Assembly (NCBI GenBank): GCA_902595845.1
Contig: CACJRN010000007.1
Location: 1 to 64,000, forward strand
DNA length: 64,000 bases
DNA from: an uncultured Gammaproteobacteria bacterium
Lineage (GTDB): Bacteria > Pseudomonadota > Gammaproteobacteria > Steroidobacterales > UBA11654
Reading direction: 5' to 3'
Position 1 is the stretch's first letter. The number at the start of each line of letters is the position of its first letter. The position numbers and the translations under genes were made by a program. Of the stretch, positions 35,736 to 43,154 are shown in pieces. The notes under the pieces were generated by a model, which saw only the letters and a program-made list of their open reading frames with translations, searched no databases and was not told the origin of the DNA.

Positions 35736-36782
35736 ATGGCAGAAATATATGATTTACAACCAGATATGTATCTCAGCAAGAAAGATGTTGAGGAAATCAC
35801 GGAAATCTTTCATACCCCTTTAACCGGATCCTACAATTGGGATTACTCTGCGGCTGACGACAAAATCAATCGACTTTATCAATTGGCAAAAAAACGTCAG
35901 TGGGATGTAGAGATTGACTTGGATTGGTCAAAGAAATGGGATATTAATTCGGCAACTTTGGATGATTACAGCATCAATCATCATTCTTATATGGGATATG
36001 AACCTTATGCCAATTTGAGTGACTCAGATAAGCTCGAGATCCAGCATAAGTTTGCGACATGGTCTTTGAGCCAGTTTCTGCATGGAGAGCAGGGGGCACT
36101 TCTGGTCGCAAGTCAATTGTGTTCTTGTGCGCCTACATACAACGCCAAGCTATATGCCGCAACACAGACTTACGATGAAGCAAGGCATGTTGAAGCATTT
36201 AATAAATATATCCAGACACGCCAAAAGCAGATGTATCCCATTACTCCTGATCTGAAGATCCTTTTGGATAAGATCCTTACAGACGAGCGTTGGGATCTAA
36301 AATTCATAGGCATGCAATTGATCATCGAAGGTCTCGCTTTGGGTGCATTCAAGGCTTTCCAGATGACACACCCAGACAAACTGTTACATCAGCTAATAGA
36401 AAAAATTGTTCAGGATGAATCACGCCATGTGACATTCGGTGTTCATTACCTTGAGCAACATGTCAAAGGACTGAGCGAGGAAGAAATAGAAGAAAGAGCA
36501 GAGTTCGCCTATGAGGCATGCTTGGTTATGCGGCAACGTTTCCATGCAGTTGAGATTTTTGAAGAATATGGCTGGGATATTGACGAAACAATAAATTACG
36601 ATGAAAGCGTTAAGGTTCGAAGAGATTTTCAAGAATTCATGTTTCAAAGAGTGATACCAAGTCTCAAACGAGTCGGCTTGTTAACGGAGTCTATCAGACC
36701 AAAGTTTGAAAAGCTGGGCATTCTCAAATGGGAAGATTTTGATGATGAAGATGTAAGTTGGAGAGAAGCACAATCTGCTTAA
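35736..36782 (+). CDS. Ferritin-like di-iron protein (unknown oxidase/oxygenase)
   Basis: 348 residues. It carries a full carboxylate-bridged di-iron set: Glu118 (HGEQGAL), Glu148-x-x-His151 (DEARH), Glu198 (IIEGLALGAF) and Glu228-x-x-His231 (DESRHVTFG), i.e. E...ExxH...E...ExxH. This is the layout of ribonucleotide reductase R2-like oxidases, AurF-like N-oxygenases and related enzymes. No R2 tyrosine or partner reductase is evident, and no signal peptide. It stands alone between two tRNA genes. The ferritin-like superfamily is certain; the reaction is not known. Confidence 0.75.
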   Translation: MAEIYDLQPDMYLSKKDVEEITEIFHTPLTGSYNWDYSAADDKINRLYQLAKKRQWDVEIDLDWSKKWDINSATLDDYSINHHSYMGYEPYANLSDSDKLEIQHKFATWSLSQFLHGEQGALLVASQLCSCAPTYNAKLYAATQTYDEARHVEAFNKYIQTRQKQMYPITPDLKILLDKILTDERWDLKFIGMQLIIEGLALGAFKAFQMTHPDKLLHQLIEKIVQDESRHVTFGVHYLEQHVKGLSEEEIEERAEFAYEACLVMRQRFHAVEIFEEYGWDIDETINYDESVKVRRDFQEFMFQRVIPSLKRVGLLTESIRPKFEKLGILKWEDFDDEDVSWREAQSA

Positions 36783-38685: not shown

Positions 38686-40068
38686 ATGAAAATTCTAATA
38701 ATCTTATTTCTGGTTTTCAGTACTAGCGCATTAGCCGAAAAGAAACCGAATATTGTATTGGTCCTAATGGACAACTTCGGCTATGGGGAAGTTGGAGTCT
38801 ATGGTGGCGGTGAACTAAGAGGTGCTCCAACTCCAAATATTGACAGCATCGCTGCTGAAGGCTTTCAATTGACAAATTACAACGTTGAAGCAGAGTGTAC
38901 ACCCTCTAGATCTGCGCTCATGACTGGTCGATATGGAATAAGAACGAGGCAGAGACCTGATCAACCACCAAGAGGGGTATGGTATGGCATTACAAAGTGG
39001 GAGATTACACTCGCTGAGATGCTGACCGATGAAGGCTATACCACTGGGATGTTTGGCAAGTGGCATCTTGGAGATACTGAAGGTAGATATCCAACAGATC
39101 AGGGCTTTGATGAGTGGAATGGAATCCCAAGGTCTTCAGACAGGGCATTTTGGCCAGACAGTAATAGTTTTCAGCCTGACGCACACCCAGATATGAAGTT
39201 CGCACATGTCATGTCATCGTTCCGAGGTCAGAAACCAGAAGAATTGGAAGTATTTGATCGAGCCAAGAGAGCAACCATTGACAGAGAGATTACTAATCAT
39301 GCAATCGACTTCATTAAAAGGAAGGCGAAATCGGAAAAGCCATTTTTTGCATATCTTCCTTATACACAAACTCATGAACCCGTCGATCCTCATCCTGATT
39401 TTTATGGTAAGACTGGAAATGGAAGTTTTGCAGATGTTCTAGCACAGACAGATGTTTATATTGGAGAGTTGCTCGATACAATCGAAGAACTCGGACTTAA
39501 AGAAGACACCATATTTATTTTTACTTCTGACAATGGAAGAGAAGGCGTTCCAAGATCATTCGGTTTTACTGGGCCTTGGAGAAGCGGAATGTTTTCACCA
39601 TATGAAGGTTCACTGAGAGTCCCTTTCTTGATTCGATGGCCTGGAAAGATTCCCCAAAAGCAAGTCTCAAATGAGATCGTACATCAGATTGATATCTTTC
39701 CAACAATAGCAAGTTTCATAGGTGCTGAGATTCCAACTGATCGAGTCATAGATGGAGTTGATCAATCTGACTTCTTTATGGGTAAAACAAGTAAATCAGC
39801 CAGAGAGTCTCTTGTTATATACATTGGTAATGAGTTATTTGGGGCCAAATGGAGAAATTGGAAGATACTTCTGAAAGAATTAGACGAAGATGGTTACGGT
39901 ATAAAAGAGATGGCCTATCCCTCAGTATATAATCTCATTGTGGATCCAAAAGAAGAAGTGCCAGAGCTCAATTATCTCAATGATACTTGGGTCGACTTTC
40001 CTCTTTATCAGGTGCTTGAAGATCATGAGTGGTCAATAGAAAACGATTCTGGTTCACCAGGCCCATAA
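38686..40068 (+). CDS. Exported type I sulfatase (arylsulfatase-like)
   Basis: 460 residues with a signal peptide (ILIILFLVFSTSALA). The active-site signature is CTPSR at Cys71-Arg75, the CxPxR motif whose Cys is converted to formylglycine by a separate FGE or anSME enzyme not seen here. Metal residues appear in VLMDNFGYGEVGVYG (an MDN variant of the usual DD) and FTSDNGREG near residue 279. HLGDTEGRYPTDQGFDEW is typical of the family. Followed 22 bases later by an MFS carrier. Substrate unknown. Confidence 0.88.
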   Translation: MKILIILFLVFSTSALAEKKPNIVLVLMDNFGYGEVGVYGGGELRGAPTPNIDSIAAEGFQLTNYNVEAECTPSRSALMTGRYGIRTRQRPDQPPRGVWYGITKWEITLAEMLTDEGYTTGMFGKWHLGDTEGRYPTDQGFDEWNGIPRSSDRAFWPDSNSFQPDAHPDMKFAHVMSSFRGQKPEELEVFDRAKRATIDREITNHAIDFIKRKAKSEKPFFAYLPYTQTHEPVDPHPDFYGKTGNGSFADVLAQTDVYIGELLDTIEELGLKEDTIFIFTSDNGREGVPRSFGFTGPWRSGMFSPYEGSLRVPFLIRWPGKIPQKQVSNEIVHQIDIFPTIASFIGAEIPTDRVIDGVDQSDFFMGKTSKSARESLVIYIGNELFGAKWRNWKILLKELDEDGYGIKEMAYPSVYNLIVDPKEEVPELNYLNDTWVDFPLYQVLEDHEWSIENDSGSPGP

Positions 40069-40090: not shown

Positions 40091-41299
40091 ATGACAGAAA
40101 AAAAGGGAATAGCATTAGCATTGGAAGATTGGAAAATCCTATTTGAGGACGATTGGAAATCACTGATTATTGCTCTTTATATGGTCTTAGTTGGTTATGG
40201 TGTGCTGGTTGGAATACCTGTAATCAGCACCGCTTGGGTTACAAAGCTGGGTTTCACAGAAGTTGAGGTGGGCAGAGTTGCCGGAATGGATTTGGGTGGC
40301 CTTGCCGCGGGATCAGTTTTTACTGCATGGATCATTCAAAGAGTTAATAGAAGAATACTGGTCTTCTTTGGAATCATTATTGCAGTGGCTGCAAATGCAC
40401 TTTGTATCAGATACGTTGATTATGAAACGGTACTCTATCTGAGATTTATATCTGGTTTTGGGAGTGGGATATACACCTCAGTGGCTGTTGCTGTCTTTGG
40501 AATGTCGATAAGACCTGCACTTGCATATAACCTGATGCTTTTTAGTTTCGCATTTTCTCAAGCATTAGAGATGCAAGTATTGCCACAATTATCCATGAAT
40601 GGAATTTACACAGCATTTATTGTTTGTTTTTTAATTACCATTCCTTTCCTTGGTTGGCTGCAGAGTTATCCAGTAACTAAAAATAGTGATCAAACCCATG
40701 CTCAACCTCAGAGGAAAAATAAGAAACTCTCATTGGTGCCATGGATTTGTTTATTCGCCATATTCTTGACCTATATCAATATCGGTGCCTACTGGACCTA
40801 TATCGAGCTCGCGGCTTTGGATGCGAATACGAATGCAGATCTTGTAGGCAGTACACTCGTGTGGGCTTCTTTTTGTTCGCTGTTGGGCTGTTTCATTGCC
40901 ACATTACTTAGTAACCGATTTGGCCTGATTCGACCACTCTTGATCGCCTTGATTACGATGGCAACTGGGGTCGGACTGCTCTCATTTGGCATCACAGAAC
41001 CCAAATTCTTAATGAGTGTTTTTACATTTAATATACTTTGGATATTTACCGATGTTTATCAAATGGGTTCACTCGCAAATTTTGATGATGGAGGGCGTTA
41101 TTCAGCATATCTGCCAGCATCTCAAGGACTCGGTCAAATTGTAGGCCCGAATTTAGCTGCATCAATATTGTCATTTAATCTGGGATATGAGAGCGTATTC
41201 ATGATGTGCTGGGCTGCTGCTATGTTAGCAATGGTTATTTATTGGTTGCTGCATCGATATCTTAGAGCAACTGACCCAGAATTGGCCGATGCATCCTAA
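40091..41299 (+). CDS. MFS transporter
   Basis: 402 residues with about 12 hydrophobic segments and a charged central loop (QTHAQPQRKNKK, about 200-215), the major facilitator layout. The loop after helix 2 has WIIQRVNRRILVFFG, similar to the GxxxDRxGRR region. N- and C-terminal tails are charged. Directly after the sulfatase and before the hydrolase-like gene, same strand, so uptake of the sulfatase product is plausible. Substrate unknown. Confidence 0.8.
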   Translation: MTEKKGIALALEDWKILFEDDWKSLIIALYMVLVGYGVLVGIPVISTAWVTKLGFTEVEVGRVAGMDLGGLAAGSVFTAWIIQRVNRRILVFFGIIIAVAANALCIRYVDYETVLYLRFISGFGSGIYTSVAVAVFGMSIRPALAYNLMLFSFAFSQALEMQVLPQLSMNGIYTAFIVCFLITIPFLGWLQSYPVTKNSDQTHAQPQRKNKKLSLVPWICLFAIFLTYINIGAYWTYIELAALDANTNADLVGSTLVWASFCSLLGCFIATLLSNRFGLIRPLLIALITMATGVGLLSFGITEPKFLMSVFTFNILWIFTDVYQMGSLANFDDGGRYSAYLPASQGLGQIVGPNLAASILSFNLGYESVFMMCWAAAMLAMVIYWLLHRYLRATDPELADAS

Positions 41300-41319: not shown

Positions 41320-42207
41320 ATGATGTTTGTGAGAATCTTTAACAAATTTCCGATCTTTATACTGATTATGATTTTGACTTTTGATGTCAGTGCTGAAATG
41401 CCAGGCATGTCTGGAGAAATTAGAAGGGACTATACGGATACCAGTTTTGGAAGAGTGCACTTTTGGACAATTGGTGATGGTCCTGCTTTATTATTACTCC
41501 ACCAGTCAGGTCAAACTTCAGCAGAGTATCTGACATTGGGACCAGTGCTTGCTGATAGTTTTAAGGTGATTGGTATTGATTTACCCAACCATGGTCAATC
41601 AGATTCTTCTAAACACGAAATGAATGCAGATGAATACGCAGACTCAATCTTACAAGTTATGGATAATATTGGTGTCGATGATTTTCATTTCCTAGGCCAG
41701 CATGGCGGTGCAGCAATTGGCATCAATCTTGGTATTCGACATCCAGAAAGGATTGGAAAACTGATTCTCTCAGGAGCTGGTAGAGAAGAGAATTTAACTG
41801 AAGAGCAAATTCAGGAACTCATCGATAGACCAATGACCAGAGATCTACCAGTTGATGCAGATGGTGAGTTTCTTGATAAAACATGGGATGTATATCGACA
41901 TATGAGTGCAAGCTCCACATCACCTGAGATGACATTTAGGCCTTTCTTAACAAGCCTGATAAATCGCCAGAGAAAGTTTGATATGCATTATGCAATCTTT
42001 CGATATCAGCCAAATCTAGATGATTTAGATAAAGAAACCCTTCTTCTTGAGGGAGAGGAAGATATTTATGCTGGTGATGTTGCAGGATTGCAGAAAAGGA
42101 TCAAAGGCAGCACGATTGTAAAACTTCCAGGTGTTGGCAGTTGGCAGTTTTATGAAGATCCAGAATTACATGATGAGGTCATCACTGAATTTTTACTCAC
42201 AAATTGA
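41320..42207 (+). CDS. Exported alpha/beta-hydrolase-like protein lacking the usual Ser and His
   Basis: 295 residues with a signal peptide (IFILIMILTFDVSA). Clear alpha/beta-hydrolase fold: LLLLHQSGQTSAEY oxyanion region, VIGIDLPNHGQSD, and the nucleophile elbow FLGQHGGAAIGINLG. The elbow reads G126-Q-His128-G-G130, with His where Ser, Cys or Asp is expected. The late segment PGVGSWQFYEDPEL lacks the usual catalytic His as well. The acid-region EGEEDIYAGD is kept. It may use another mechanism, bind ligand only, or be a non-hydrolytic enzyme. Fourth-gene partner of sulfatase and MFS. Confidence 0.75.
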   Translation: MMFVRIFNKFPIFILIMILTFDVSAEMPGMSGEIRRDYTDTSFGRVHFWTIGDGPALLLLHQSGQTSAEYLTLGPVLADSFKVIGIDLPNHGQSDSSKHEMNADEYADSILQVMDNIGVDDFHFLGQHGGAAIGINLGIRHPERIGKLILSGAGREENLTEEQIQELIDRPMTRDLPVDADGEFLDKTWDVYRHMSASSTSPEMTFRPFLTSLINRQRKFDMHYAIFRYQPNLDDLDKETLLLEGEEDIYAGDVAGLQKRIKGSTIVKLPGVGSWQFYEDPELHDEVITEFLLTN

Positions 42208-42233
42208 AATTAAAATGTTAAGTTAAATACTGG

Positions 42234-42262
42234 AGGAGGGTTAAAAATGACCCTCCTTTTTT
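42234..42262 (+). terminator. Rho-independent terminator after the hydrolase-like gene
   Basis: AGGAGGGT (42234-42241), loop TAAAAATG, ACCCTCCT (42250-42257) and a T run. Ends the sulfatase-MFS-hydrolase transcript, 26 bases after the stop, while the next gene begins 17 bases downstream. Confidence 0.85.
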
Positions 42263-42713: not shown

Positions 42714-43154
42714 ATGAGCAAGAAAATATTAATCTTATTGACTTTCTTTCTTATCAATCCTTCTGTTGCTGAGGAAATAGAGCACTATTCCTCTGCTGAG
42801 GCATTAAAAAAAGATTATCCATTCTCTCAGGCAGTTAGAGTGGAGAATATTCTTTATATTTCAGGAATAGTTGCTCAGGGAAATGATGGAAAGATAATTA
42901 AGGGTGGCATTATTGAGGAATCCCATTTCGTTTTAAAAAGTATGGGAGAGATTCTTGCTCATTTCGATTTAGGGTATGAGGATGTATTTAAATGCTTAGT
43001 GATGATTGATGATATTGGAGAATGGCCAGATTTTAATTCAGTTTATACCCAGTATTTTGAGAAACCATATCCTGCAAGGAGTGCATTTGGTGCAGATGGC
43101 CTAGCTTTAGAGGCATCTTTAGAATTGGAGTGTTTGGCTTATTTCAAAGATTGA
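42714..43154 (+). CDS. Exported Rid (YjgF/RidA-like) family protein
   Basis: 146 residues. A hydrophobic start (ILILLTFFLINPSVA) looks like a signal peptide, unusual because classic RidA is cytoplasmic. The body has ALKKDYPFSQAVRVENILYISGIV, a DDIGEWPDFNSVY helix and PARSAFGADGLALEASLELECLAY, matching the RidA core with its active-site Arg in PARSAF. RidA hydrolyses reactive imines/enamines; this exported version may do so elsewhere or bind ligands. Last gene of the accessory run. Confidence 0.75.
   Translation: MSKKILILLTFFLINPSVAEEIEHYSSAEALKKDYPFSQAVRVENILYISGIVAQGNDGKIIKGGIIEESHFVLKSMGEILAHFDLGYEDVFKCLVMIDDIGEWPDFNSVYTQYFEKPYPARSAFGADGLALEASLELECLAYFKD

Follow-up and report, generated by a model that had tools for sequence, protein, structure and literature searches.

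Alpha/beta hydrolases belong to the most studied enzymes. A passage in PMC7034887 sets out the acid-base-nucleophile scheme by which they work. Section 2.7 of a 2024 classification (PMC11878206) describes the residue at the nucleophile elbow as always Ser and then goes on to Asp, Cys and Ser-less exceptions; His is not listed in that section. The gene we consider here lies in a 64,000-nucleotide stretch of DNA, which we call the window, and it encodes a protein of this fold with the elbow G-Q-H-G-G. The question is whether a His in this place is an error, the mark of a protein that has lost its activity, or the sign of an enzyme that works by another chemistry.

The fold itself is well kept, as the original prediction had stated. 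The window protein scores 62.6 bits with Abhydrolase_1 (PF00561), above the Pfam gathering score of 25.8, and an AlphaFold2 model that was computed from this protein and 39 relatives has a mean pLDDT of 85.4 and a pTM of 0.85. Solved hydrolases align with the model along its entire domain, the best match being the enol-lactonase 2xua (Z 29.4, rmsd 2.4, 245 residues aligned) and with Z of about 27-29 for many esterases, perhydrolases and dehalogenases. Based on the Pfam score and the structural match, membership in the alpha/beta-hydrolase superfamily by fold stands. In the model, a strand at residues 122-127 leads to residue 128 and then to a helix at residues 129-140, which is the nucleophile-elbow turn, and His128 was indeed found in it (residues 126-130) in place of the nucleophile Ser. 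The usual C-terminal catalytic His is missing as well, as had been proposed from the translation: the beta8 position is Ser274 in this protein and in its orthologues, while 24 of the 26 homologues of the Ser or Asp type have His there (the other two are gaps). So the window protein has His128 rather than a Ser, Cys or Asp nucleophile and has no beta8-loop His, but it does have the acid after beta7, Asp248, which the original prediction did not mention. A hydrophobic N-terminal stretch similar to that of the window protein is seen in all five full-length orthologues, and by its sequence the protein is probably exported. The features are collected in Table 1. A pattern scan of the region counted no more terminator-like sites than were counted in shuffles.

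Table 1. Features of the hydrolase gene, its predicted active site and its neighbors, in window coordinates.
Feature	Coordinates	Strand	Basis or remark
Arylsulfatase-like gene, upstream	38686..40068	+	absent beside the orthologue in genome G006
MFS transporter gene, ends 20 bp upstream of the hydrolase gene	40091..41299	+	adjoins the orthologue in G006 too
CDS, alpha/beta-hydrolase-fold protein with His at the nucleophile elbow	41320..42207	+	ATG start, 295 aa
Putative Sec-type leader, residues 1-25 (...DVSA/E)	41320..41394	+	hydrophobic N terminus
His61-Gln62, oxyanion-loop motif HQ (HG in most Ser/Asp types)	41500..41505	+	alignment
Nucleophile elbow G126-Q-H128-G-G130	41695..41709	+	translation, orthologues, model
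Codon of His128 (cat), nucleophile position	41701..41703	+	translation, alignment
Asp181-Gly182, cap-region DG motif of the His-elbow family	41860..41865	+	alignment
Asp248, catalytic acid position after beta7	42061..42063	+	alignment
Ser274-Trp275 at the canonical beta8-loop His position, G-S-W	42139..42144	+	alignment
Terminator-like hairpin directly 3' of the hydrolase gene	42232..42259	+	fold z-score -3.8
Rid-family gene, downstream	42714..43154	+	kept near the orthologue in G006

An unexpected residue in an active site may be a sequencing error or a local mutation of an ordinary serine hydrolase, and Ser or Cys at the elbow of close homologues would have pointed that way. Neither was found; the elbow residue is His instead. 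GQHGG is present in all five full-length orthologues of the same genus (60-88% identity) and in a partial orthologue (L007, in G002), and it is visible in another frame of a frameshifted orthologue in G009. The G009 gene (L098, G009:C1:534000-545541) is broken by several frameshifts, which may stem from sequencing error or from decay. Every orthologue whose elbow can be read has His and, counting the more distant relatives, so do 85 of 113 homologous rows, from independent genomes. Because the elbow His is kept in relatives, the substitution is due neither to chance nor to error; no evidence that would support a sequencing error or a local mutation was found, and we regard this explanation as ruled out. 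Between orthologues, omega ranges from 0.03 to 0.15 (NG86, Nei-Gojobori; 9 of the 15 pairs had a defined dS, many of them near saturation), and by this measure the orthologues are under purifying selection.

The next relatives, at 38% identity or less, have a GHHTG, GHHSG or GYHTG elbow, and the wider relatives have G-x-H-[TSG]-G. The 113 distinct homologous rows are open reading frames of fetched loci that were scored with a family profile, with those shorter than 150 aa and duplicate sequences dropped, and their elbow residue is H in 85, S in 22, D in 4, G in one and N in one. Among the His rows, D248 is kept in 82/85, Q62 in 76/85 and the beta8 His in 41/85, and of the 44 His rows that have no beta8 His, 41 keep D248. 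D248 is missing from three His rows, namely a paralogue in G007 and two second domains that are degenerate. The Ser/Asp rows (n=26) have D248 in 24 cases and G62, which makes the HG motif, in 21. With the family profile, all Ser/Asp rows score at or below 114.4 bits and all His rows except three score at least 169 bits; high scores for the His rows are expected because the profile was built with the window protein and its relatives, so the informative part is the gap to the Ser/Asp rows. The window protein has the His elbow, HQ motif and D248 of this His-elbow (GHHTG) family.

In a 40-row alignment of the family (A4), the invariant positions are G44, H47, H61, Q62, D87, P89, G92, S94, H128, G130, G152, D181, G182 and D248, and among the functional sites it is H128 and Q62 that set these rows apart from the Ser/Asp rows. 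Larger sets of rows have a few departures at D181, H61 or Q62, and within the clade of the window protein (the query clade) residue 181 is D, N or E. Three His residues that are the same in 40/40 rows could be taken to indicate a metal or cofactor site, in which His128, the conserved H47 and H61, and Asp residues bind a metal ion. However, H61 is the His of the HG motif of ordinary Ser/Asp hydrolases and H47 is found in many of them too, so only H128 is special, and we consider a metal site very unlikely.

In this family the elbow His and the acid are retained, while the canonical His is not. Most simply, this would mean that the base has shifted to the elbow, where Asp248 is its partner. We would put the probability that a His128-Asp248 dyad acts as the base (or the nucleophile) without any Ser at roughly 0.5. 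From the geometry of the fold, it is plausible that His128 reaches Asp248. The elbow, and not the beta8 loop, would then carry the catalytic base, with His128 oriented directly by Asp248. His128 would deprotonate water, or a C-H or O-H group of the substrate, the oxyanion hole (the backbone NH of residue 129 and the loop after HQ) would stabilize a negatively charged intermediate, and, no Ser ester being formed, the outcome would be a single-displacement hydrolysis or a lyase- or isomerase-type step. A small organic molecule of the periplasm is the probable substrate. As a counterpoint, D248 is equally conserved in the Ser and Asp types, so its retention alone could be structural.

His128 might also work as a covalent nucleophile, forming an acyl-imidazole (or phospho-His) that is then hydrolyzed by water with the help of Asp248 and any beta8 His. 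Residue 128 sits exactly at the nucleophile position in the model, and the beta8 His that a nucleophile triad would need is kept in close to half of the His rows (41/85), but the same activating His is absent from the other 44 and from the whole query clade. In addition, on chemical grounds, C-halogen or epoxide substrates would leave the enzyme as a dead-end alkyl-imidazole. For these reasons, we think that covalent catalysis by His128 is unlikely.

The original prediction had named a pseudoenzyme, a binding protein or another chemistry as possible outcomes. Both the Ser and the canonical His are gone, and an exported-looking protein whose gene adjoins that of an MFS transporter could have a pocket that binds a small molecule for sensing, transport or carriage with no turnover. 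Yet D248 and the elbow His are conserved together, and the neighborhoods of relatives are rich in enzymes. As the elbow His and the acid are the constant pair, an active enzyme fits better than a pseudoenzyme. Another chemistry is thus the favored outcome, based on the joint conservation of His and acid, the expansion of these genes in the genus, and the omega values given above, and a pseudoenzyme or binding protein is in our opinion rather doubtful. What the pattern of conservation suggests is not a broken gene but a little-noticed enzyme lineage with a different chemistry.

In a quick tree of 100 rows, which left out 24 loci (duplicates, redundant or partial) and rows shorter than 200 aa, 77 His rows fall on one side of a branch with an SH-aLRT of 97, the six query-clade rows being placed beside the other 71. 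Inside the His side of this tree, the beta8 His changes at least three times. We also made a careful tree of 70 rows, with the elbow, oxyanion and beta8 columns removed and with rows shorter than 215 aa and near-copies (at least 75% identity) left out. There the 46 His rows outside the query clade form a supported clade (98/98), but their grouping with the query clade is no longer firm: all His rows, meaning the query clade and the other 46, form one clade in 27% of the bootstrap trees. Forcing all of them together costs 0.64 log units with a p-AU of 0.457, so one clade is not rejected, and a single origin of the query clade and the GHHTG clade is allowed by these alignments.

Genes of this kind are abundant in the genus. 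All ten of its genomes, including the window's own, have 5-8 strong matches (1e-40) in genomes of 1.1-1.6 Mb, and of the 18 PF00561 loci in the window genome (1.44 Mb, 25 contigs), 7 are His-elbow genes. At the level of the order, matches of at least this strength (1e-40) occur in 63 of 147 genomes, and the elbow is GHHTG in 29/29 of the top new loci of that search. In the phylum, 55 of 249 genomes pass 1e-20 and, among the matches listed, scores of at least 169 bits occur in the window's own genome and three others. A profile of the query clade searched against 274 genomes of the class matched the own genome and one other at 1e-20, and the two matches in the other genome are GHHTG types; no member of the query clade was seen outside its genus in this search.

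GHHTG members are also found in Rhodospirillaceae, Lysobacter, Parahaliea and other contigs, which came from a peptide scan with two short patterns; the 37 loci it yielded are therefore a biased sample of GHHTG genes. Among plasmids, 12 loci were opened of 696 records with a match. A His-elbow domain is present in five of them (Streptomyces L129, Azospirillum L130, Shinella L132, Novosphingobium L133 and L138); the remaining seven (L131, L134-L137, L139 and L140) are of the Ser type. With His-elbow loci on plasmids of such hosts, the family, as recognized by sequence, spans at least Pseudomonadota and Actinomycetota. One GHHTG member, L068:5326-6243, carries a leader of the twin-arginine-like type, which may mean that His-elbow proteins became exported on more than one occasion.

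We did not find a stable operon partner for the gene. Only G006 retains the order MFS-hydrolase-hypothetical-Rid; in G001, G005, G007 and G008, the orthologues adjoin SDR, DUF885, glyoxalase, Cons_hypoth698, FAD amine oxidase and other genes. The Rid-family protein of the window has a hydrophobic N-terminal leader and looks exported, and export is unusual for a Rid protein. Also within the window, at 35736-36782, there is an AurF-like gene (N-oxygenase, ferritin-like).

Some neighbor types of the wider family recur in unlike subclades, with the recurrence being a raw tally among loci that were fetched by homology and of which many are closely related. FAD_binding_4 oxidases are near the family genes of L049-L055 and L176 and also of L057, L065, L079, L102, L130 and L181. 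Amdase-like genes (Asp/Glu-racemase superfamily) are beside the genes of L058-L064 and near that of L181, and another racemase-like type is beside or near those of L132, L100 and L101. Luciferase-like monooxygenases are found beside the orthologue in G007 and in L170 and L129, and DUF1838 genes in L178, L133, L079 and L096. The FAD oxidase, Asp/Glu-racemase-like and luciferase-like neighbors of these relatives suggest a role for the family in small-molecule catabolism or metabolism.

Tandem His-elbow genes, two or three at a time, occur in eight Rhodospirillaceae and other alphaproteobacterial loci, and in 7/8 of these the stretch has a type III polyketide synthase gene. L066, L069 and L073 each have three tandem, nearly overlapping His-elbow genes whose paralogues vary at the beta8 position (H or F), and L069 and L073 hold ICMT-type methyltransferase genes as well as the type III polyketide synthase genes. 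In L178 (G000:C1:211000-227500), an MFS gene is flanked by two His-elbow genes, with DUF1838 and Rieske/VanA_C nearby, and a 551-aa His-elbow protein of this locus has a second, degenerate alpha/beta-hydrolase stretch.

We found no description of a His-elbow alpha/beta hydrolase in the literature, although our search covered mostly openly readable papers and its wording was in part narrow, so this is weak evidence of absence. For many members of the family the annotation says no more than 'alpha/beta hydrolase', and functions are therefore likely to be transferred to them wrongly. A conserved family whose elbow His is constant and whose canonical His is optional would be a natural test of whether the fold can work with a relocated base, and the members that differ at the beta8 position provide ready-made comparisons.

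The window protein resembles the Abhydrolase_1 (PF00561) superfamily in its fold, the position of its elbow, the acid after beta7 and a Pfam score above the cut-off, and differs from it in having an elbow His that is not Ser, Cys or Asp and in having no beta8 His. No NCBIfam family could be assigned: all 25 models listed for the protein were far below their cut-offs, and for 40 members of A4 the six models that matched at 1e-15 were all of other alpha/beta hydrolases. We also saw no solved structure of a His-elbow member; the best profile match was 3qyj with 97.2 bits, compared with at least 169 for nearly all His rows. The 3-oxoadipate enol-lactonases of the PcaD type share the fold, as the match to 2xua indicates, and there is a weak match to TIGR02427, at 53.2 bits against a cut-off of 255.85. 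PcaD has a canonical triad. The best single-sequence PDB matches are fluoroacetate dehalogenase and other enzymes with an Asp nucleophile. Enzymes of the fluoroacetate dehalogenase type have an Asp nucleophile and a beta8 His, whereas the window protein has His128 at the elbow and no beta8 His, and we rejected a haloalkane or fluoroacetate dehalogenase because there is no Asp at the nucleophile position.

E. coli RutD also combines an alpha/beta-hydrolase fold with a Ser-less elbow (GHALG), and its operon includes a Rid protein. In contrast to the window protein, RutD has Ala at the elbow and retains the beta8 His (GGHA), and it scores 44.5 bits with the His-elbow profile. Conversely, the window protein scores 36.6 bits with the RutD model (TIGR03611), for which the cut-off is 238.5. 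According to a passage in the RutC paper (PMC8113886), the role of RutD is unclear and it is dispensable in the laboratory. The genes annotated as 'alpha/beta hydrolase' on the Streptomyces, Shinella and Novosphingobium plasmids (L129, L132 and L133) have other neighbors than the window gene, but they have the same type of active site, with a His elbow (GHHTG), HQ, D248 and no beta8 His.
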